Virus record (IMG/VR): IMGVR_UViG_3300025687_000215
Coordinates: 1 to 29,458 of that record
DNA: 29,458 nt
Strand: one strand, 5' to 3'
Source of the DNA: a virus
Notes under the pieces: model-generated
Told to the model about the DNA's origin: nothing
Database searches by the model: none
What the model saw: only the letters and a program-made list of their open reading frames with translations
Position numbers and translations under genes: made by a program
Part shown: positions 7,206 through 24,887 of the stretch, one piece after another
Position numbering within the stretch: position 1 is the first letter of the stretch
How the letters are laid out: each line of letters begins with the position of its first letter

Positions 7206-7445
7206 ATGAAGAAGATGTATCGAGTTGTTCAGGGACAGAAGCGGCGGAATGATCCTGATAAGAAGGATTGGGTGAGATTGGGTATTGCGTTCAGCGACAG
7301 TAACGGGATGCGAGTTAAGTTGAATGCGTTGCCATTGCCTGATGAGAATGGAGAGATTTGGTTAAACTTGTTTGAGGACGAGCCTAAGTCTGGTGGTCAA
7401 CAGATGCAGAGATCTTCTCAGACAGAAGATGCTATACCGTTCTGA
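7206..7445 (+). CDS. Small SSB-like protein with SSB-type C-terminal tip
   Basis: 79 residues, ribosome site AGGAAGG upstream. A beta-rich core (YRVVQGQKRRNDPDKKDWVRLGIAF, then MRVKLNALPLP and EIWLNLFEDE) resembles small single-strand-binding-like proteins of phages and mobile elements. The last residues are SQTEDAIPF, an acidic tip ending in Ile-Pro-Phe. Bacterial SSB ends in DDDIPF, the docking tail for replication and repair partners. The protein is far shorter than E. coli SSB (178), so it would be a minimal OB fold plus tip. The assignment combines a seen motif and inference. Its stop overlaps the TerS start (TGATG). Confidence 0.6.
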   Translation: MKKMYRVVQGQKRRNDPDKKDWVRLGIAFSDSNGMRVKLNALPLPDENGEIWLNLFEDEPKSGGQQMQRSSQTEDAIPF

Positions 7446-7873
7446 TGGCGAGAACCCGGCAAACTCCGATTGGTAGATTTGGTGGGGTACGTTTAGCGCA
7501 GCGGCGTATTCGGACCAGTGAGACATTGGAGAATAACAAGGAAGCGGTTGCCCAGGAGTTGATTGCTCTTGGGACCACTTCGATTACTGAGATTATAAAT
7601 CTTGATGGTTCTATGCGTCCGTTGGACGAGATACCGGATTATGCGTTACGGGCGATAAAGAAGATTGTTCCGATGCCGGATGGTCGTGTATCGATTGAGT
7701 TGTTTGATAAGGTGAGTGTTTTGCGGATTTTGGCGAAGGCAGCTGGTTTCTTAGATAATCCTGAGAAGGAGAATGATAAGCCATCGATTGTTGGGATTAA
7801 CATGCGTGGACCGGCGGCAACGACAGAGTATGCTGAGGTGGTGGATGATTTATCTGAGCGGGAAAAAGGTTAG
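7445..7873 (+). CDS. terS: Terminase small subunit (probable)
   Basis: 142 residues. The N-terminus is basic, the middle is helical with a possible HTH (LGTTSITEIINLDG), and the C-terminal part reads VSIELFDKVSVLRILAKAAGFL. The pattern 'x-ElFDKvxvLrxLaka.Gf' is typical of phage terminase small subunits, where it precedes the segment that contacts the large subunit. TerS recognises the packaging site on concatemeric DNA and stimulates TerL. Unusually, two DNA-modification genes lie between it and terL. No TerS name was confirmed by search. Confidence 0.68.
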   Translation: MARTRQTPIGRFGGVRLAQRRIRTSETLENNKEAVAQELIALGTTSITEIINLDGSMRPLDEIPDYALRAIKKIVPMPDGRVSIELFDKVSVLRILAKAAGFLDNPEKENDKPSIVGINMRGPAATTEYAEVVDDLSEREKG

Positions 7874-7895
7874 TTGCACTAAAGACTTGGGGGTT

Positions 7896-8450
7896 ATGCT
7901 CAGCTTCAATGCAGGAAAACAATCTCTTCGCGGCCACAGTTTGTTTGCGGCAGATAACGGGTGTTTTGTTCAATCGGAAAAGTACAGCGATGAAGGTTAT
8001 CTAGCGTGGTTAGATAAATTGGATCGAACATTTTGTCTGTTTGCGGCTGCGCCTGATGTGGTTGGGGATGCTGAAAAAACGAGAGCGCGAAGTTATCCGA
8101 TGCTTCCAAAAATCAGGAGGCTTGGATTTAAGGCTGCGTTTGTAATTCAGGACGGAGAAACACCGGATCAAATTCGATGGGATGAGTTGGATGCGATTTT
8201 TATTGGTGGATCTACGGAATGGAAACTTGGTCCTATTGCAGCGGATATTGCTTCCGAAGCAAAAAAGCGCGGCAAGTGGGTTCATATGGGCCGTGTAAAC
8301 TCATTTAAACGAATGAGATTGGCAGCGGCCATAGGATGCGATAGCGTCGATGGGACTTACCTGGCGTTTGAGCCGGATAACAGGAAGGGAAAGATAGAAA
8401 AATGGTTACAGAAACTAAAGCAACAACCGTTGCTAGAAATGGTGGGTTAA
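7896..8450 (+). CDS. dpdA: DpdA-type DNA 7-deazaguanine transglycosylase
   Basis: 184 residues from ATG 7896, 22 bases after terS; a longer frame from 7773 would overlap terS by 100 bases and is rejected. It belongs to the tRNA-guanine transglycosylase superfamily but is about half the size of bacterial TGT. Conserved blocks: ADNGCF (19-24), APDVVGDAEKT (52-62), FVIQDG (82-87), FIGGSTEWKLG (102-112), HMGRVNS (130-136), GCDSVDGTYL (147-156). By analogy with TGT GxDxFDC, D152 would be the nucleophile. The TGT zinc cysteines are absent. This form matches the short phage DpdA proteins that exchange guanine in DNA for preQ0-type bases, which protects phage DNA from restriction. It is followed directly by the transporter gene. 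Confidence 0.82.
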   Translation: MLSFNAGKQSLRGHSLFAADNGCFVQSEKYSDEGYLAWLDKLDRTFCLFAAAPDVVGDAEKTRARSYPMLPKIRRLGFKAAFVIQDGETPDQIRWDELDAIFIGGSTEWKLGPIAADIASEAKKRGKWVHMGRVNSFKRMRLAAAIGCDSVDGTYLAFEPDNRKGKIEKWLQKLKQQPLLEMVG

Positions 8451-8971
8451 TTCCCTGGGCGTATCTAGGCGGATATATCGCAACGATACCGCTGGCAAAC
8501 TGGATGATTGGCAATATCGGGACGTTTTGTGTTCCTGATGGTCCTTGTATGATACCTGTTGGGCTTGGAATGACTGCGCCAAGCGGTGTGTTAATGGTGG
8601 GCGCGGCACTTGTTTTGCGCGATCAAGTTCAAGAACATCTTGGAACCAAGTGGTCTTTGTTTGCAATTTTTATTGGTGCGGTTCTGTCTTACATTCTGGC
8701 AGATCCATTTATTGCAATCGCAAGTATATTAGCGTTTGGAGTGTCGGAGCTTGTAGATTTTTTTGCATATACAAAAGTTCGACAAAAAAGCCGTGAATTG
8801 GCGATAGCAGTTTCAGGATTAGTTGGAGCAATATTTGATAGCGTTGTGTTTCTTTACATTGCGTTTGGGTCTTTAGCCTATATCGAGGGGCAAATATTTG
8901 GTAAGCTTGCAATTAGCATCTTGGCCGCTGGCATTCTTTGGGTGATGAAAAATGGATATTCCAAGTCTTGA
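8402..8971 (+). CDS. yhhQ: YhhQ/VUT-family queuosine-precursor (preQ0/preQ1) transporter
   Basis: 189 residues, an inner-membrane protein with about five or six hydrophobic segments. The family signature is visible: APSGVLMVGAALVLRDQVQEHLG (about 59-81), then a loop ending ADPFIAIASILAFGVSELVDFFAYTK (about 100-125) and SGLVGAIFDSVVFLYIAFG (about 138-156). YhhQ of E. coli (221 residues) takes up preQ0 and preQ1 for queuosine synthesis. Next to dpdA it would feed imported deazaguanine into phage DNA modification. It overlaps dpdA by 49 bases and terL by 20 bases, so it is tightly coupled to both. ATG 8402 is the only good start, with GGAAGGG about 12 bases upstream. Confidence 0.85.
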   Translation: MVTETKATTVARNGGLIPWAYLGGYIATIPLANWMIGNIGTFCVPDGPCMIPVGLGMTAPSGVLMVGAALVLRDQVQEHLGTKWSLFAIFIGAVLSYILADPFIAIASILAFGVSELVDFFAYTKVRQKSRELAIAVSGLVGAIFDSVVFLYIAFGSLAYIEGQIFGKLAISILAAGILWVMKNGYSKS

Positions 8972-10469
8972 TTTGAACTTTGAGAACAGCCCGACTGTTT
9001 GGAAGTTTTTACATGACGATAGCTTCGTTAGGGGCTTGATGGGTCCGGTTGGATCGGGTAAATCCTATGGCTGTGCAGCCGAGATAATGCTTAGGGCAGT
9101 GAGGCAACAACCTAGTCCACGCGACGGTATCCGCTATTCCCGATTTGTTATCGTTCGTAATACATATCCCGAGCTGCGCACGACCACGATTAAGACCTGG
9201 CAAGAGCTATTTCCCGAGGACACCTGGGGATCTATGCGCTGGCAGCCGCCGATTTCACACCACATTCGTATTCCAACGCGGGGCGATATCCCTGGGATTG
9301 ATTGTGAAGTTATCTTCATGGCCCTTTCTTCTCCGCAAGATGTACGGAAACTGCTGTCATTGGAGCTTACGGGCGCTTGGGTCAATGAGGCCAGAGAGTT
9401 GCCGAAAGCGGTGATTGATGGTTTGACGCACAGAGTTGGGCGATATCCGACAAAAGCGGATGGTTCTCCGACATGGTACGGCATTTGGATGGATACGAAC
9501 CCGCCTGACAATGACCATTGGTGGCATGAGTTAGCAGAGAAAAATCCGATTGGTGGTGCCTACCCGTGGACATTCTTCAGACAACCCGGCGGTGTTTTGG
9601 CGGTGGATGGGAAAGATGTGCCGGAAAATCCAGAGGCGCAGGGCCATGTGTTTTCTGGGGGCAAATGGTGGAAAACCAATGAGGATGCGGAGAATAGAAA
9701 CAATCTGCCGCCCGGATATTATCAACAGCTTCTCGGCGGAAAGAATGCGGATTGGATCAGGTGCTATGCGCAGGGAATGTACACGTTTGTGCAAGAGGGG
9801 CGTCCGGTCTGGCCGGAGTATGACGATGAATTGATGAGCGGGGATGTTGAGGTCGATCCGTATTATCCTATGCAGATTGGCGTTGACTTTGGATTAACAC
9901 CGGCAGCGATCTTTGGGCAGAGAACACAAGCAGGGGCGTGGCGGATCTGCGATGAGCTTGTAACATTTGACATGGGCCTTGAACGGTTTGGTCAGGAAAT
10001 GATGGCATTGATTGCTCAGAAATATTCTAAGCATGATATCCTGATCTGGGGCGATCCGGCGGGGAATAAACGGGATGAGATTTACGAGGTTACAGCCTTT
10101 GACCATCTCAGATCACTTGGTTTCAAAGCACAACCAACAGAAAGCAATGCGTTTCAAGTCAGACGCGAAGCCGGGGCAAGTCCTATGGGGCGGCTGATAA
10201 ATGGCAAACCTGGGTTGATGGTGGATAAGAAATGCTTGCGGCTGCGCAAATCTTTAAGCGGTGGATACTTTTTCAAGCGTCAAAGCATGGGCGCTGGGCA
10301 AGATCGATTTAAAGATACGCCGGTGAAGAACGATCATTCACACTGCGGGGATGCGTTTGGATATCTTATGCTGGGTGGCGGTGAACAAAGACGACTGCGC
10401 AGGGGAACATATGGAAATGGCTTCTCAGCACAAAGCTACTCCGCTGAAACGGAGTTTAATGTATTCTAA
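8952..10469 (+). CDS. terL: Terminase large subunit
   Basis: 505 residues. Packaging ATPase plus nuclease. Walker A is GPVGSGKS (31-38); the Walker B/catalytic segment is LTGAWVNEARE with E146. The RNase H-like nuclease domain follows, with candidate metal acids D312 (IGVDFG), D368 (IWGDPAG) and D467 (HSHCGDAFGY). It translocates DNA into the prohead and cuts the concatemer. The N-terminal FVRGLMGPVGSGKSYG style is that of terminases in T7-like and related short-tailed phages of aquatic bacteria. Its ribosome site (GGGTGATG) is weak, so coupling to yhhQ is likely. Confidence 0.95.
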   Translation: MDIPSLDLNFENSPTVWKFLHDDSFVRGLMGPVGSGKSYGCAAEIMLRAVRQQPSPRDGIRYSRFVIVRNTYPELRTTTIKTWQELFPEDTWGSMRWQPPISHHIRIPTRGDIPGIDCEVIFMALSSPQDVRKLLSLELTGAWVNEARELPKAVIDGLTHRVGRYPTKADGSPTWYGIWMDTNPPDNDHWWHELAEKNPIGGAYPWTFFRQPGGVLAVDGKDVPENPEAQGHVFSGGKWWKTNEDAENRNNLPPGYYQQLLGGKNADWIRCYAQGMYTFVQEGRPVWPEYDDELMSGDVEVDPYYPMQIGVDFGLTPAAIFGQRTQAGAWRICDELVTFDMGLERFGQEMMALIAQKYSKHDILIWGDPAGNKRDEIYEVTAFDHLRSLGFKAQPTESNAFQVRREAGASPMGRLINGKPGLMVDKKCLRLRKSLSGGYFFKRQSMGAGQDRFKDTPVKNDHSHCGDAFGYLMLGGGEQRRLRRGTYGNGFSAQSYSAETEFNVF

Positions 10470-10951
10470 TGGGCCTGATACAGCTACCAACATTCAAAAT
10501 GCGGACGGATGAACAAATTGTTCCGCTGACACTCAATCATCTCTATAGTATTAAACTCGGACCACACGAACAAGAATACGCCAAACATATTCCAGACTAT
10601 TTGGATTATGTTTGGGATCACTCTGAACTTGGATGGTCTTGGACCGGGATTGGACGTGGTCGCGTTGTTTGCTGTTTTGGAGTAAGAGATTTTTGGCCAG
10701 GCGTAGTCGAAGCCTGGTTTCTCCCAGGAGAAGGCATGAATGATCATGTTAGATCGATTTTAATAGGCGCAAGAGCAATATTAAACAATGTGATGTCTGA
10801 TAACGATATCAGACGTATGCAAATCTGTGTAAAAGTAGACAATCAACCCGCATTAAGGTTTGCTAAAGCACTACAGTTTGAGGTAGAGTGCAAGCTAAGA
10901 AAGTACGGTCCAGAGGGGGCCGACTATTATTCTATGGCGAGGTTTGACTAA
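10469..10951 (+). CDS. GNAT-like protein (T7 gp13/DUF2833-type position)
   Basis: 160 residues. The C-terminal half, with MQICVKVDNQPALRFAKALQ (about 117-136) then a G-x-x-G-A-D-Y-Y-S-M-A-R ending, follows the GNAT acetyltransferase motif B layout, in which a residue such as N or Y near 125-150 contacts the acetyl group. The acetyl-CoA loop is not an obvious Q/RxxGxG/A. T7-type phages carry a comparable small GNAT-fold protein near their head and internal-protein genes. It may be a virion or assembly protein and not an active enzyme. It starts in TAATG overlap with terL. Confidence 0.65.
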   Translation: MGLIQLPTFKMRTDEQIVPLTLNHLYSIKLGPHEQEYAKHIPDYLDYVWDHSELGWSWTGIGRGRVVCCFGVRDFWPGVVEAWFLPGEGMNDHVRSILIGARAILNNVMSDNDIRRMQICVKVDNQPALRFAKALQFEVECKLRKYGPEGADYYSMARFD

Positions 10952-11193
10952 TGGGCGGACTGTTTGGCGGAAAAAAGAAATCGAAACCGGCTCCGGTAGT
11001 CGAGAAAGAAGTGGCGGCTGAAAAAGCACAAGAACGTCAGGAAGAGCGTGTAATAGCGCAAGAAAAGACGGAATCACAAGCAGCACAACAGCGGCGGCGG
11101 ATCCGTAGATCTGGCGGAATGCGATTGTTGTTCTCTCCATTGCGACAAGAAGGGCCGGGTGGCCAGATGAAAACCAAACTAGGCGGTGATTAA
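10951..11193 (+). CDS. Small Gly/Lys and Glu-rich virion-region protein
   Basis: 80 residues. It starts MGGLFGGKKKSKPAP, followed by a coiled, charged middle (EKEVAAEKAQERQEERVIAQ) and an R-rich end (RRRIRRSGGMRLLFSPLRQ). Small proteins of this make-up are typical between TerL and the connector in podoviruses, but I cannot name a family. It overlaps the preceding stop (TAATG). Unknown role. Confidence 0.7.
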   Translation: MGGLFGGKKKSKPAPVVEKEVAAEKAQERQEERVIAQEKTESQAAQQRRRIRRSGGMRLLFSPLRQEGPGGQMKTKLGGD

Positions 11194-11194
11194 G

Positions 11195-11563
11195 ATGGTT
11201 ACTCGCCCCAGGTCTTACACAGATGCCATTACAAGAAAACCAGCAAAAGATCTAAAAACGCTTGGTTCTAACATTTTGTCAGACATTCAAATGGGGCTGG
11301 GCTTCAAAGAAAAAACATCTGACTATCAAGCAAGAACTCGCCGCACTAGAGATCGTATGGCTGCTGAAAGAGAAAGAAAAAAAGCCAGTGGTGGAGGCGA
11401 TAGAAAGCCAGCAAAAAAAGTTGCTCCGCAAAAAACACCGGAGCAAATAGCCAAAGAAAAAGAACGGGCAGAAGGTCAAGAGCGCCGTAAGAAATTTGAA
11501 CAAAAGCGCGGTAAATTTGTTGCGAAACGCCGTGCGCTGTTGAGGAATATTATGAATGACTAA
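11195..11563 (+). CDS. Basic, highly charged hypothetical protein
   Basis: 122 residues from ATG 11195, with AGGCGG eight bases upstream; an in-frame GTG at 11186 is an alternative. The N-terminus (RPRSYTDAITRKPAKDLKTLGS) is followed by a long K/R/E-rich helix to the end (PEQIAKEKERAEGQERRKKF). The composition suits a nucleic-acid-binding or scaffolding-like protein. No family recognised. Confidence 0.65.
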   Translation: MVTRPRSYTDAITRKPAKDLKTLGSNILSDIQMGLGFKEKTSDYQARTRRTRDRMAAERERKKASGGGDRKPAKKVAPQKTPEQIAKEKERAEGQERRKKFEQKRGKFVAKRRALLRNIMND

Positions 11564-11693
11564 AATCAAGAATGATGAAAGAGTTTATCGCAAGGTAATG
11601 GCTGTTGAAGAGCCTAAGCCAGAACCTCAAAAGAAATCAGCGCCTAAAAAGAAAGCAAAATCTGGTGGTAAAAAAAGCGCATCAAAATCCTAA
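11556..11693 (+). CDS. 45-residue basic protein, probable 5' half of the DUF6321-like gene
   Basis: ATG 11556 overlaps the previous stop region. It reads MTKIKNDERVYRKVMAVEE, then a Pro/Lys-rich stretch (PKKKAKSGGKKSASKS) and a TAA at 11691-11693. Its final codons pass through a run of seven A (11670-11676), after which the +1 frame continues into a recognisable conserved domain. It is either a separate small protein, the N-terminus of a frameshifted fusion, or half of a gene split by an indel or sequencing error in the A run. Confidence 0.6.
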   Translation: MTKIKNDERVYRKVMAVEEPKPEPQKKSAPKKKAKSGGKKSASKS

Positions 11694-19155: not shown

Positions 19156-21735
19156 ATGGCAAGACTTCCTAGATATCAAAGACTTGGTGTTACAGCGCGA
19201 CAACCTCGAAGCATAGATTTTGCTGGATTTAGAGAAGAAGCGAATGTTGGGATGGCGATGTCTCAAACATTCGATCAGATGTCTAAGTTTCTATATGAGC
19301 GTGCCGGAGAAGAAGCGCAGCAACGCGGTCTTGAGCGTGTTCGCACAGAGGGTGCGCAACCTATTTTGGAAGAACTGCGTATGCAGGGTGGTCCTAGAGG
19401 CATTGAAGAAAAGACAGCATATGAAGCAGCTAATCGTATTGCTGTTGCTGAATTGCAAAGTGAAGCTGATTTAGAAATTACCAAAATACTGACACAAGGG
19501 CAAAATAATAAAACATCGTTTTCTACAGTGCAAACGCAACTGAAAGATATAACAGATGGCTTTGCCGCATCTTTGTCTGACATTGATCCCGTATCAGCTG
19601 GATTGCTTCGCGCCAGACTTACCGAAACAACTGGTAAGGCGGAAATGCGTTATTCTAAATGGTACACTACTTACCAGGCTGGATTGCGCAAAGAAAAACA
19701 AAATCGTGTATCGGCCAATGAAGCTGAGATTATTATCGGCAATGCAACTGTTGCTGGCTACACTATAGAAGCAATAGAATCAGATATTGAAAAAGCTTCT
19801 ACGAATTTAGAGGATCTTGGTGTAAAAGCAGAGAATATTACGGCATGGGCTAAAGGTGTTCGTGAAAAAGCTATTAAGGAAAAAACGGTATTTGATTTTT
19901 ATCAAAAACCAATAACAGAACAAAAAGAACAAATTGAAGCCATTCTATCTGGTAAAGAGAGTTTACCAGGTATGGATTTTGAAGATAGTATTCGATTTGT
20001 AAATGGATTGTTGCGGCCAGAATATAATCGAAGTGTAACGGCAGTGAAGGCCGAAGCTGACTTTTTAGTAAATAAAGTTGATGAATTAGAAGATATTTTA
20101 GAAAGCGGTGGTCGTATATCTGCTGAGGACTTGGAAACTTTACGCAGCGCAGCGGTAGATGTTTCAGAGCAAGATGGAACAATTGGATCACCGGCAGTTA
20201 AAGCGGTCAACGATTTATCAGAATTAGAAGGCTTTTATGCTTCTATGCGCGGAACTTCTTTATCAGACATGGAAGAAAATGTTCTAAGTTTGCAAAATGG
20301 TATTAAAGGCGCTGGTAAAGAGGGCATTGATACAACACTTGAGGTTGATCGATTAGATCGCGCTCAGAAATTTTTGACAAACATGAAAACACAAATTAGC
20401 CAGGATCCTATGGGATATGCTGATCGTCAGGGCATAATTCAAAGACAATCCATATTATCGGTTGATGAAGATAATAAAATACAAGTTAATCAAAATGCTT
20501 TACAAAAAAGACAAAAGCAAGCTATGCAAGTTGCTGCTCAGTATGGATTGCAAACGCCTAAATTTTTATTTGCTGATGAAGCCCGGCGGATTGGGTTGTT
20601 ATTAAATCAAGCAGAGGGTGCTGCTAAATTAGACATCCTTGGTGCTTTATCATCGTTCGATGCGGCAGCGGGTCAGGTCTTAGAAGATATTGCAGAATAT
20701 AATCCTGAAATGGCATTGGTTGGTGCATTGGTAAATGCTGGAAATACAGAAACAGCATTGCTTGCCGTGCAGGGTATGGACCGAATTAAGGCGGGTGAAA
20801 AGCCTATTGATTTTACTCCAACAAATATAGAATTGGTTCATAATCGATTTGGCAGAGCAATTACAACGCCAAAACATCATGCGGCAATCAAAGATGTTGC
20901 TAAAGCAATTTATACAGAAATGGCTGCAAGTAAGGGTGTTTTTGCATGGAGTGATGAACTTTATGAGCAAGCCTATCAAATGGCGGCGGGTCAAACTACG
21001 CGCAATGGTAAAGTATATGGCGGTATTCAAGAGGTTCGCGGCATACAAACCTTTGTAATGCCGGAAATGACTGCTAATGATTTAGAAACATTTTTAAATG
21101 AAATAAATGTTGATGTTATTCAATTGGCAACGGGTCAACAAATTAGTGGCGACTTAGCTGAACAAATTAAAGAAAATGATAATTACAATTTCCGTAATGT
21201 TGGCGGCAATAAATACTCAATAGAATATGGCGATAAGGGTGAGGCATTTGTTTCGGATGCAGATGGTCGGCCAGTTATTATTGATATTACACAATTACAA
21301 AAATCTTTTGGTTTAATGCTGCCAGATGTTGGTGCAATGACAACGGAAACTAAATCAACTGAAAGGATTTTTGGTATAATAAGTGAAGAACTTTCTTTCA
21401 AAAGAAAACTTAGAAAAACAGGCTTAGAACAGATCACTGAAATATCTCCGGCAGCAGCCCCAGCGCCTCCTGGTCAAATCCTAGAGGATCTTCCAGAAGA
21501 GCTTGAATTTGTGCCTGGGTCTAAAGAAACCCGTGAATTGAAAAGAACAATCTCAGGCATTTCTGAAAGCCCTAGAAAAGAAATCGCGCTTAAAAACATT
21601 AAAAAAATGCTAGCATCAACTAGAGGGGTTAGAGATAGAAAAAATATTAAAGCATATGATGCTATGATAAGTAAGGAAATAGAGAAAAACCCAACATTCT
21701 TTATGTCTTATGATGATTGGCTGAAAACACAATGA
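19156..21735 (+). CDS. Internal virion / ejection protein (gp15-like position)
   Basis: 859 residues (T7 gp15 747). GGGAG ribosome site. The N-terminus ARLPRYQRLGVTARQPRSIDFAGF is typical of gp15-like ejection proteins; the remainder is almost all amphipathic helix with no enzymatic motif. It should form the periplasmic part of the DNA ejection conduit. It ends in ATGA overlap with the next ejection protein gene. AT-rich wobble positions here match the neighbours. Confidence 0.8.
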   Translation: MARLPRYQRLGVTARQPRSIDFAGFREEANVGMAMSQTFDQMSKFLYERAGEEAQQRGLERVRTEGAQPILEELRMQGGPRGIEEKTAYEAANRIAVAELQSEADLEITKILTQGQNNKTSFSTVQTQLKDITDGFAASLSDIDPVSAGLLRARLTETTGKAEMRYSKWYTTYQAGLRKEKQNRVSANEAEIIIGNATVAGYTIEAIESDIEKASTNLEDLGVKAENITAWAKGVREKAIKEKTVFDFYQKPITEQKEQIEAILSGKESLPGMDFEDSIRFVNGLLRPEYNRSVTAVKAEADFLVNKVDELEDILESGGRISAEDLETLRSAAVDVSEQDGTIGSPAVKAVNDLSELEGFYASMRGTSLSDMEENVLSLQNGIKGAGKEGIDTTLEVDRLDRAQKFLTNMKTQISQDPMGYADRQGIIQRQSILSVDEDNKIQVNQNALQKRQKQAMQVAAQYGLQTPKFLFADEARRIGLLLNQAEGAAKLDILGALSSFDAAAGQVLEDIAEYNPEMALVGALVNAGNTETALLAVQGMDRIKAGEKPIDFTPTNIELVHNRFGRAITTPKHHAAIKDVAKAIYTEMAASKGVFAWSDELYEQAYQMAAGQTTRNGKVYGGIQEVRGIQTFVMPEMTANDLETFLNEINVDVIQLATGQQISGDLAEQIKENDNYNFRNVGGNKYSIEYGDKGEAFVSDADGRPVIIDITQLQKSFGLMLPDVGAMTTETKSTERIFGIISEELSFKRKLRKTGLEQITEISPAAAPAPPGQILEDLPEELEFVPGSKETRELKRTISGISESPRKEIALKNIKKMLASTRGVRDRKNIKAYDAMISKEIEKNPTFFMSYDDWLKTQ

Positions 21736-24700
21736 TACAGTTTGATCGATCAGATGTATATGATTTTCCTGGCATGGTTGGTATTTCTGAGCCGGTATCT
21801 GACTTTGCAGAAAACTTTTTTGCTGCACAAGATAATATGCGTCTTAACGATCAATCTCAAAGCAAAGAGCTTATTCTTAAAGATTTGTGGACACCTATCG
21901 TTGAAGAGATGCGCGAGACATTTCCCAACCAAGGATTTGGTGGTCGTGATTTTGAAAACCCGGCAGACTTCTTAGGGATCGGACTAGGTGTTTATAGTTC
22001 AGCCGGTGGTCCACAGGACAGATATAACTTTGCTGTAAATACTCTCCTGAATTTTATGAACGAAAATCAGGAAAGCTTACCGGATCATTTAAAAGGAATT
22101 ACGGTTCAAAGCTTAGAAGATATTGCAAAGGAACGTGCGCAAGCTGCAAGAAAATATGCTGAAGAAGTTGGTGCAAGAAACTTTACGTTTAGCGGAACAC
22201 TTGGTCAATTTACTGGTGGTGTTAGTGGTCTAATTGATGATCCGGTTAATGCGTTTGGTCTTATGGGTTCAAGTGCAAAAAATTTATGGAGATTGGCATT
22301 TACCGAAGCTGCGATTGGTGCGGGTACTGGCGCAATAGCAGAGGCCGGTGTTGCAGATTGGTATGAAGAATTAGGATATGATTATACATATCAAGATTTT
22401 CTTCGCAATGTCGCATATAATACGGTTGGCAGTGCAGCATTTGGCGTGGGTATTCGAGTATCAGCGGATGCCGCAAAAAGTGGCTGGAATGTAATTAGTA
22501 ACTCCGGCAAGGCAAATAAAGACAGTCAAGCTTTAGCAGATGCGGCAGAAGCAAGAGAAGAGTTAGAAGCTGATAATCCATTTACAGATGCAAATTTGCC
22601 CCCGGCACAGGCAGAACATACTTCCAGAACAGTAAGCGCAGAAGCGGCGGTTGAAAATAATACTGCGCCTATGATACCAAATGAGGCTACTATTCAGCCA
22701 ACGCCTGAGATGATTGAAGCCGCTACCGATAATCTTAATGGCGTTATGTTTTCTGTAAATCCAAGAGATGTGAATGTTGATGCTAAACGCTTTCAGTTTA
22801 AAGAAGGCGGCGATGAGTATGGTGTCACTGAGCGGTTGCAAGGTGTAACTGAGTGGGATCCTATTAAAGCTGGGACTGTTATCTTCTGGGAAGATGTTGA
22901 TAGTAAGATATTTGTGGCCGATGGCCATCAGCGTGTTGGTTTAGCCCGGCGTATCCAAGCACAGAAGCCCGATGAGAAAATAGAAATCATTGGTTATAAA
23001 TTGCGTGAAACAGACGGTGTAAGCGCAGAGAAGGCCCGTGTAATAGCGGCAATGACAAATATCGCACAAGGCACTGGCACAGCAATTGATGCCGCTAAAG
23101 TGCTTCGTGTGGAGCCTGGGCGCATTGCAGAGTTACCGCCTCAATCTGTTTTGGTAAGACAGGCTAGAGATCTGGTCAATCTAAATAACAAAGCATTTGG
23201 TGCTGTTGTAAATGAGGTTATCCCAGCAAACTATGGTGCGATAGTTGGTCGGTTGATTGATGATCCTGATTTGCAAGATGCTGCTATCGGGGTTTTGGCA
23301 AAGTCAGATCCGGCAAACCTTTTCCAAGCAGAGGCAATAGTTCGTCAGGTGCGGGAAATGGACACTGTGCAAGAAACGCAAGTGTCTTTGTTTGGCGAAG
23401 AGATTATCACAGATAGTTTATTTACAGAACGCGCACGGGTTCTTGATAGAACAACTAAGCTTTTGCGTGGTGATAAGGCGGCGTTTGAAAGCCTAAGTAA
23501 AAACGCTGAACGTATTGAAGCAGAAGGCAATAAGCTTGCCAAAGAGCAAAACCAAAGGAGGGCCGACCAAGATGCCCAAGCGATCACGCTCCTCCAAGCG
23601 CTTGCAAACCGAAAAGGCGTCCTCAGCGATGACCTCTCAGCGGCAGCAAGAACAGCTAGAGAAACAGGAAACTATGCAGAAGCAGCCCGAAACTTCGCCG
23701 ATGCTGTCAGACGAGGAATTGAACGAGGCGATTTTGATGGGGCGTCAACTGGCGATGTTGGACGCGCTGTCGATGTTGCGCCGCAAAGCCGCGAGGCTGC
23801 GATCGAAGAAGAGCCAACCCTAGAGGGATTTGATGAACCCACCGGCCCAGCGGTAGAGGCCCAGGTTAATCAGATGGTTCTTGATACTTTTCGCGCACTT
23901 GAGGAAGTACCTGTTAAAGAAGATGTAAAAGCTATCGAAAGATCCTTGAAAGATCGTCAACCGGTAGAAACTGTTGATGATATTTTTAAAATTGCACAAG
24001 CGTCACAAGACTTTATTGATGGGATTGGCCGTGGTCTTGCAAGAGATTTGGGTATTAATTTTAAAAACCCTGGCTTGAAAAAAATTGAAACTGCAAAAGA
24101 AAAGATGCAGCGCAAGAGTTATGCATCTGCCAGGGAAATGACAGATATTTCTCGGGCTGGTTTTGTTATTAATAAAGCTTCGGATGCTGATGCGATTACA
24201 GAACGCCTAGCGCAGAATGCAGAAATATTAGATGAAGGATGGGCTGTTACTCCAGCGGGATACTTTGATCGTAAAATTTTAGTCCGTACTCCTAATGGAA
24301 TTATTTCAGAGATACAGATCTGGTCGCCTAAGCTGATTGAAGCTAAGAATGCAAAAGGTCATAAGCTGTATGAAAAACAGCGTATGTCTAAAGATCCAGA
24401 AGAAATTGACGCATTAGAAGCACAGCAACGAGAGCTTTATACTCAGGCATTATCGGAAGAAGATCCGTCATTTTCAAAGCTTGTCGGTATGGAAAAAGAT
24501 CCAAAAGTGCTTTCAAATGCAGACATAAAAGCAGCTTCATCCGCAATCACCCGGCCAGAATTACGAACATCCAGACCATCTACGGCTGTCCAAGGGCCGC
24601 CTGGTGTTAGTATGGCTAGAGCTTTAGAGGCTGAAAAAGATATAGCGGGACGCCCATCCCAAGAAACTAGAAAAGTGTCAGACATTGGCGAACCTCCTAC

Positions 24701-24887
24701 TGAAGATATAAGCGATATTACAATAGATATCAAGCCTGATGATTTTGATTTAGAGATACCGCTGACAACTAGATTTGATGAAGAAACTGGCGAGCTTTTG
24801 GCAGAAACAAAAACATTGCGTGATATTAAGGCTGATATCGATGCAGAGGATGCACTGATTAACCGTTTGGGGGTATGTGGTTTATGA
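21732..24887 (+). CDS. Large ejection protein with ParB-like and RelA/SpoT-like regions
   Basis: 1,051 residues from ATG 21732; an in-frame TTG at 21717 is less likely. Residues about 145-265 form a Gly/Ala-rich, membrane-active helical region (FTGGVSGLIDDPVNAFGLMGSS), usual in internal virion proteins. Residues about 340-460 look like a ParB/DdrB-type domain: DVNVDAKRFQF, then IFVADGHQRVGLARRI with the DGHxR element. Residues about 775-885 follow the RelA/SpoT plan: KIETAKEKMQRKSYASAREM, TDISRAGFVI, GYFDRKILVR and SEIQIWSPKL. Neither catalytic activity is proven. It occupies the T7 gp16 position, yet no lytic transglycosylase motif was seen. A second gene lies nested in another frame at 23572-23823. 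ATGA overlap with the next gene. Confidence 0.78.
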   Translation: MIQFDRSDVYDFPGMVGISEPVSDFAENFFAAQDNMRLNDQSQSKELILKDLWTPIVEEMRETFPNQGFGGRDFENPADFLGIGLGVYSSAGGPQDRYNFAVNTLLNFMNENQESLPDHLKGITVQSLEDIAKERAQAARKYAEEVGARNFTFSGTLGQFTGGVSGLIDDPVNAFGLMGSSAKNLWRLAFTEAAIGAGTGAIAEAGVADWYEELGYDYTYQDFLRNVAYNTVGSAAFGVGIRVSADAAKSGWNVISNSGKANKDSQALADAAEAREELEADNPFTDANLPPAQAEHTSRTVSAEAAVENNTAPMIPNEATIQPTPEMIEAATDNLNGVMFSVNPRDVNVDAKRFQFKEGGDEYGVTERLQGVTEWDPIKAGTVIFWEDVDSKIFVADGHQRVGLARRIQAQKPDEKIEIIGYKLRETDGVSAEKARVIAAMTNIAQGTGTAIDAAKVLRVEPGRIAELPPQSVLVRQARDLVNLNNKAFGAVVNEVIPANYGAIVGRLIDDPDLQDAAIGVLAKSDPANLFQAEAIVRQVREMDTVQETQVSLFGEEIITDSLFTERARVLDRTTKLLRGDKAAFESLSKNAERIEAEGNKLAKEQNQRRADQDAQAITLLQALANRKGVLSDDLSAAARTARETGNYAEAARNFADAVRRGIERGDFDGASTGDVGRAVDVAPQSREAAIEEEPTLEGFDEPTGPAVEAQVNQMVLDTFRALEEVPVKEDVKAIERSLKDRQPVETVDDIFKIAQASQDFIDGIGRGLARDLGINFKNPGLKKIETAKEKMQRKSYASAREMTDISRAGFVINKASDADAITERLAQNAEILDEGWAVTPAGYFDRKILVRTPNGIISEIQIWSPKLIEAKNAKGHKLYEKQRMSKDPEEIDALEAQQRELYTQALSEEDPSFSKLVGMEKDPKVLSNADIKAASSAITRPELRTSRPSTAVQGPPGVSMARALEAEKDIAGRPSQETRKVSDIGEPPTEDISDITIDIKPDDFDLEIPLTTRFDEETGELLAETKTLRDIKADIDAEDALINRLGVCGL
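23572..23823 (+). CDS. Gene nested inside the ejection-protein gene (83 residues)
   Basis: Wholly inside the 21732-24887 gene, in another frame. ATG 23572 has an AAAGGAGGG element ten bases upstream, which is as strong as any ribosome site in the window. The product starts MPKRSRSSKRLQTEKASS, is Q/E/K-rich in the middle and ends with an amphipathic helix (SDEELNEAILMGRQLAMLD, then RRKAARLRSKK). This stretch is visibly richer in G and C than the rest of the host gene, as expected when two frames are constrained. No family recognised. It could be a regulator or small virion protein. A chance ORF is possible. Confidence 0.5.
   Translation: MPKRSRSSKRLQTEKASSAMTSQRQQEQLEKQETMQKQPETSPMLSDEELNEAILMGRQLAMLDALSMLRRKAARLRSKKSQP

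Follow-up and report, generated by a model that had tools for sequence, protein, structure and literature searches.

The stretch of viral DNA analysed here (29,458 nucleotides, positions 1 to 29,458 of IMG/VR record IMGVR_UViG_3300025687_000215, hereafter the window) carries between its terminase genes two overlapping reading frames, one for a short predicted base-exchange enzyme and the other for a YhhQ-family membrane protein. This arrangement raises the question of what such a pair would do for a phage. The initial annotation had answered it with a salvage unit, in which a DpdA enzyme would place in the phage DNA a 7-deazaguanine that is taken up instead of being synthesized. The features on which the question turns are the following:

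7445-7873, plus strand: terS (terminase small subunit), flanking the enzyme-transporter pair upstream
7845-8450, plus strand: short TGT-superfamily (DpdA-like) predicted base-exchange enzyme, 201 aa, phrog_15826
8402-8450, plus strand: 49-nt overlap of the enzyme and yhhQ genes, read directly from the sequence, with a translational-coupling geometry
8402-8971, plus strand: YhhQ/VUT (COG1738-type) predicted 7-deazaguanine transporter, 189 aa, phrog_4899
8952-10469, plus strand: terL, terminase large subunit, downstream flank, overlapping yhhQ by 20 nt

The enzyme gene most likely spans 7845-8450 and overlaps terS by 29 nt, because the product then begins with MIYLSGK, and relatives sharing 57-97% identity start with the equivalent MI/MYLSG(K/R), encoded from the position matching 7845. 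The start at 7896 initially assigned, giving 184 residues, was off by 51 nt and cut 17 residues from the protein, and the longest ORF, starting at 7773, was ruled out by the same conserved N-terminus. All four motif blocks that had drawn attention to the gene (ADNGCF, FIGGSTEWKLG, HMGRVNS and GCDSVDGT) lie within the enzyme frame, whose end is at 8450; the membrane protein and its 49-base overlap with the enzyme gene were as first described. The same overlap is seen in the relatives L001-L007, and the gene order terS-tgt-yhhQ-terL was found again in six related contigs. Both genes are under purifying selection, pairwise dN/dS values against five relatives being 0.03-0.09 (enzyme) and 0.05-0.18 (yhhQ).

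The origin of the contig in a podovirus-like, marine short-tailed phage, of which it represents a fragment, is supported by the presence in these 29 kb of a PF12236 head-tail connector, tail proteins and an internal virion protein, in line with the short-tailed phage initially proposed; a major head protein and an amidase are also encoded. The nearest cultured relative is the OM43 phage MEP301, as judged by TerL (70% identity, the window protein matching the terminase family phrog_2 with E 5e-26) and by the portal (58%). The terS product is 46% identical to that of this Methylophilales phage and matches Terminase_2 under the cut-off (22.7 bits, E 1.7e-4). Kinship with MEP301 suggests a marine proteobacterium as the host, though the G+C content of the contig (about 45%) is above that of MEP301-type genomes (33.5-37.8%). 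In MEP301 three small ORFs lie between terS and terL, which indicates a variable site with the pair as its cargo and rules out that the latter is a standard component of the packaging module. Two other genes of the window may be mentioned. An acetyltransferase-like gene (10469-10951) lies directly 3' of terL, at the same place as MEP301 gp44, annotated as an acetyltransferase, and an ORF of 1056 aa (21717-24887) partially matches both phrog_10691, a family of 3925 positions and unknown function, and the portal family phrog_21.

Assigning the enzyme to a family was not straightforward. Searched as a single sequence, the protein matched nothing in Pfam, NCBIfam or PDB sequences, and short-family profiles returned only chance matches against PDB sequences. 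The sole PHROG matched was phrog_15826, of unknown function (E 1.5e-59), at least 568 relatives of which were confirmed in an IMG/VR search. The DpdA-type family phrog_887, annotated as queuine tRNA-ribosyltransferase and including the DpdAs of phages Sonali and phiG7, was not matched directly by the enzyme, and the Pfam TGT family PF01702 matched neither the enzyme nor 32 related records nor 14 family members. PF01702 also misses the Sonali and phiG7 DpdAs, so that the missing match constitutes weak evidence against a TGT relation; as it overlooks undisputed phage DpdAs, it was dropped as a DpdA marker. At the profile level, a profile of the short family only matched 109 phrog_887-type ORFs (best E 1.4e-6) and, in reverse, a phrog_887-type profile matched 36 short-family ORFs (best E 1.1e-8).

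Structure prediction, which the initial annotation had proposed as a check together with HMM searches, yielded a confident AlphaFold2 model of the enzyme (80-row alignment, pLDDT 94.1, pTM 0.90), a TIM barrel resembling TGT, arcTGT and phage DpdA. In Foldseek comparisons with the PDB, arcTGT 1j2b (E 6e-5), the DNA preQ0 insertase DpdA 7ui4 (E 3.7e-4) and many TGTs were retrieved among other TIM barrels, the best match being a ribulose-phosphate epimerase. Since these other barrels score equally, the fold by itself is not specific to TGT. Against a viral library, Sonali, Bella96 and other DpdA-type proteins came near the top, and the model aligned to the Sonali phage DpdA with a TMq of 0.62 and an rmsd of 3.2 Å over 172 columns. 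The best structural match of all was A0A0F7L9Z1 of BFVD, a 499-aa protein of an uncultured marine virus (E 5e-13), in which a TGT-like domain may be fused to another domain. Profile-level and fold comparisons together place the enzyme inside the TGT/DpdA superfamily. The HMM-based refutation proposed at first accordingly had a mixed outcome. The DpdA identity first claimed holds at this level only: library HMMs miss the protein and direct matches to phrog_887 and Pfam TGT fail, for which reason its sequence is designated DpdA-like instead of DpdA and is kept in a separate short family, phrog_15826.

Ten positions of the enzyme carry the same residue in all 80 relatives (D37, P70, D71, Q102, G122, K127, H147, N152, D169 and G170). 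Five elements, D37, D71, Q102, G121-G122 and D169, are colinear with the catalytic and base-binding positions of TGT, which we take to be D102, D156, Q203, G229-G230 and D280, respectively, equivalences that follow from the succession of motifs and from an alignment to DpdA-type proteins, not from superposed coordinates. At the position resembling TGT Q203 the short family has the glutamine Q102, and most aligned DpdA/phrog_887-type proteins have a histidine. The TGT zinc motif CxCxxC occurs in none of the 80 relatives and is likewise absent from the phage DpdAs compared.

The product of 8402-8971 belongs to PF02592 (Vut_1; 42.9 bits, cut-off 27.2) and shows seven candidate membrane windows, partly overlapping, in its hydropathy profile. 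With TIGR00697, the queuosine precursor transporter model, it scored 38.5 bits, under the cut-off of 50.95. The E. coli YhhQ imports preQ0 (PMC5372724, PMC6884629), and YhhQ has been stated to be able to supply this base (PMC11945000); COG1738 is, nevertheless, not homogeneous in substrate, the preferred 7-deazaguanine seeming to vary across the family (PMC5372724). The phage protein is probably an importer of a guanine-like base, as judged from its gene context.

The association of the two genes extends far beyond the window. Among 116 dereplicated short-enzyme loci, yhhQ was the commonest real neighbour, other recurrent ones being queC (9), queE (6), queD (4) and full-length dpdA (4), and folE was found as a further alternative. 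In 64 dereplicated phage/viral loci, yhhQ lay within 1 kb of the short enzyme in 40 and preQ0-synthesis genes were present within the stretch retrieved in nine, both occurring together in a single one (Fisher P=0.001); neither was seen in 16 loci, 10 of which are cut within 2 kb. In the opposite direction, a TGT-superfamily ORF was located at most 400 nt away, on the same strand and in either order, in 141 of 148 viral yhhQ loci gathered with yhhQ profiles, a proportion of 95% that holds for these yhhQ clades and not for all viral yhhQ, since most of the yhhQ genes used as seeds were linked to the enzyme. Part of these loci come from contigs also present in the enzyme-based search. After dereplication, 74 of 80 yhhQ loci retained such a partner, overlapping or at most 30 nt apart in 57 of the 74. 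When assigned with two separate profiles, the 141 partners were divided into 118 of the phrog_887 type and 23 of the short family, and the majority of them belong to a TGT family used in no search. The two families are interchangeable in their place next to yhhQ, each of these loci having one of them. Six dereplicated yhhQ loci had no partner of either type: in L309 it is replaced by a third TGT family, phrog_1279, and in L207, L210, L222, L246 and L303 the locus is near the sequence end.

These loci take several forms. The commoner form of the pair among the viral contigs retrieved is a 226-aa phrog_887-type TGT (MIHYHGTP...GQSVMWDNGAF) overlapping yhhQ, as in L299 (5303-5983) and similar loci (L178-L325). 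In L053, L054 and L055 (around 10001-11683) the short TGT is followed by queC and yhhQ, with no queD; as QueC makes preQ0 from CDG, these phages could import a different precursor. L086 (9835-10606) has a QueC-like gene overlapping or next to its short TGT, and neither QueD nor yhhQ was found in the record. In ReqiPine5 a PAPS reductase-type gene (gp02; L018, 12604-13521) comes after the yhhQ-TGT pair; its product may either act on the base or have no connection with it. Short-TGT relatives are also found on bacterial contigs of Nocardia, Nonomuraea, Caballeronia and Paraburkholderia (L104-L176), mostly without yhhQ.

The source of the base appears to have changed more than once. In a 76-enzyme tree, eight changes are required to account for the eight rows that carry the synthesis label, making it probable, from these sequences, that synthesis and import replaced each other repeatedly around the enzyme. 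In the window record no match was obtained for QueC, QueD or phrog_887; the contig being a 29-kb fragment, further pathway genes may lie outside it. Both QueC and QueD were lacking in 21 of 24 hand-chosen yhhQ-bearing records, the window included, the exceptions being phiG7 (QueC and QueD) and two related records (QueC only). Cultured phages with such pairs are GreaseLightnin, infecting M. smegmatis, and Opt-719, infecting E. coli, the latter with a VUT gene and a phrog_887-type partner. GreaseLightnin has neither QueC nor QueD and its host genus has no Q genes, a combination that is difficult to account for unless a base is taken up from outside.

From these data, we consider it likely that the pair is a salvage unit, in which an imported 7-deazaguanine would be exchanged by the TGT-fold enzyme, most likely into the phage DNA. 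The transporter-plus-transglycosylase unit put forward initially is in this respect well sustained by the fold, the invariant residues, the profile homology, the reciprocal coupling and the near-exclusivity of yhhQ and preQ0 genes. In the proposed mechanism, the YhhQ-family protein would sit in the host inner membrane and import external preQ0 or a related base (preQ1, queuine or some other 7-deazaguanine), and the 201-aa protein would act as a minimal TGT-fold transglycosylase. Its D169, which corresponds to D280, the nucleophile of TGT, would attack the guanosine with the help of D37 (D102), and D71, Q102 and G121-G122 would bind the base, the outcome being the departure of guanine and its replacement by the imported base. 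Modification would most likely affect the phage's own DNA, after replication. The site between terS and terL suggests expression of enzyme and transporter together with the packaging genes, in which case modification would occur shortly before packaging, with resistance to host nucleases as the likely benefit.

DNA as the target is favoured by the relation to CAjan and MED16. In CAjan, deletion of dpdA leads to loss of both dPreQ0 and restriction resistance (PMC6884629). MED16 has a phrog_887-like dpdA as its only such gene; dADG amounts to about 0.13% of the G in its DNA, and the enzymes tested were not noticeably affected (PMC8306585). The main alternative is that the pair serves tRNA, the small TGT placing an imported queuosine precursor in host or phage tRNA and thereby improving late translation. 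TGT itself works on tRNA, its glutamine is kept in the short family where most DpdA/phrog_887-type proteins have histidine, and phages with Que genes and no DpdA have been proposed to raise tRNA queuosine (PMC6884629). Nevertheless, the zinc site is missing from the whole set of 80 relatives, a phage copy would add little in the majority of hosts, which already have a TGT, mycobacterial hosts such as that of GreaseLightnin lack any Q genes (PMC6884629), and the nearest characterised relatives function in DNA modification. We therefore regard a role in tRNA as unlikely.

Against the salvage unit stand the failed direct matches of the short family, the epimerase as best PDB fold match, the absent zinc motif, the TIGR00697 score under its cut-off and the absent or very low modification of published DpdA-only phages. 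In addition, Sonali, phiG7, L045 (full-length DpdA at 7218-8111) and L092 carry the short protein alongside a full-length DpdA, and the former could accordingly have another role. It might be an accessory that remodels or removes the base or acts in other sequence contexts, the transporter feeding a host DpdA or an unseen phage one. This is quite improbable given that a full-length DpdA is nearby in only 4 of 116 loci, that phrog_887 is absent from the window record and from most other short-TGT records searched, that the short protein retains every base-binding and catalytic position, and that short and phrog_887-type families alternate at the same spot beside yhhQ. As separate observations, the short TGT of phiG7 (L023, 5896-6488) is split in two frames beside an intact full-length DpdA and preQ0 pathway, and the short-TGT match of SHIN8 is likewise in two pieces. 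Finally, the TIM-barrel protein might be an enzyme with no relation to TGT, set beside a transporter for some other vitamin or purine as coincidental cargo. This would agree with the epimerase as best PDB match, with the naming of PF02592 as merely a putative vitamin uptake transporter and with the mixed substrates of COG1738 (PMC5372724), but is made very improbable by the TGT-superfamily gene beside 141 of 148 viral yhhQ genes, the queC, queE, queD and folE neighbours and a profile homology to the phrog_887-type family reaching E 1e-8.

If the salvage unit is accepted, a candidate answer emerges for the phages that encode DpdA and no substrate genes: the base would be brought in by a phage-encoded transporter. 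Phage DNA modification would then be conditional on the 7-deazaguanines of the surrounding medium or environment, the DNA of a given phage could be modified in nature yet not in laboratory medium, and the missing modification of laboratory cultures may reflect precursor-free growth. A function is thus proposed for two PHROG families marked as unknown (15826 and 4899), and the related pairs of many other phages suggest DNA disguised with a borrowed, not a self-made, base. We lean towards the broader view of a widespread modular cassette that would combine YhhQ with any of at least three TGT families (phrog_15826, phrog_887 and phrog_1279), the base source being repeatedly swapped and modification depending on the environment. 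The cultured GreaseLightnin and Opt-719 make the model testable.

Comparison with known systems defines what is particular to this pair. With phage DpdA of the phrog_887 type (CAjan/phiG7, Sonali, MED16), the short family has in common the TGT fold, the order of the D, PDV/DxxGD, GG, H and DS motifs, a location beside 7-deazaguanine genes and detectable profile homology. It differs in its length (about 190-210 aa versus 296-306 aa for the full-length phage DpdAs compared), in the glutamine at the Q203 position, which is histidine in most aligned phrog_887-type proteins, in the invariant DxxDG-type nucleophile site (D169-G170) and in forming a separate PHROG (15826). A 2023 paper reportedly describes DpdA subfamilies (DpdA3, DpdA4), with which the present family may overlap. 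Bacterial and archaeal TGTs (PF01702) are likewise TIM barrels with the D102, D156, Q203, G230 and D280 equivalents in the same order, but are about twice as long as the phage enzyme, which has neither a PF01702 match nor the zinc motif. The phage transporter, like E. coli YhhQ (COG1738/TIGR00697), is a small polytopic protein above the PF02592 cut-off and tied to 7-deazaguanine genes; unlike it, the phage version scores under the equivalog cut-off and its gene overlaps a TGT-like gene.

A 2019 survey listed 76 phages, Orion included, with DpdA and without substrate-synthesis genes, and found YhhQ in some phages with no correlation with any phage group (PMC6884629); two haloviruses carry YhhQ plus the preQ0/G+ pathway (PMC8651126). 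Among DpdA-only phages, Orion is unmodified, as found after growth on M. smegmatis (PMC6884629), and 7-11 and MED16 have very little modification. The present phage resembles the Group 3 DpdA-only phages (Orion, 7-11), for which precursor uptake was proposed as one option (Hutinet et al. 2019), in having a base-exchange gene without the preQ0 pathway, and differs from them in encoding an importer beside the enzyme. The SEA-PHAGES "DpdA-like tRNA-guanine transglycosylase" genes (Sonali 81, GreaseLightnin 55, Aoka 40) belong to the same family (49-56% local identity), with GreaseLightnin 54 and Aoka 38 as yhhQ partners; the enzymes were labelled there by similarity only and the adjoining transporters as hypothetical or membrane proteins. 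Phage YhhQ and DpdA were each already known, and the new element would be the linkage of a minimal TGT family with an importer.
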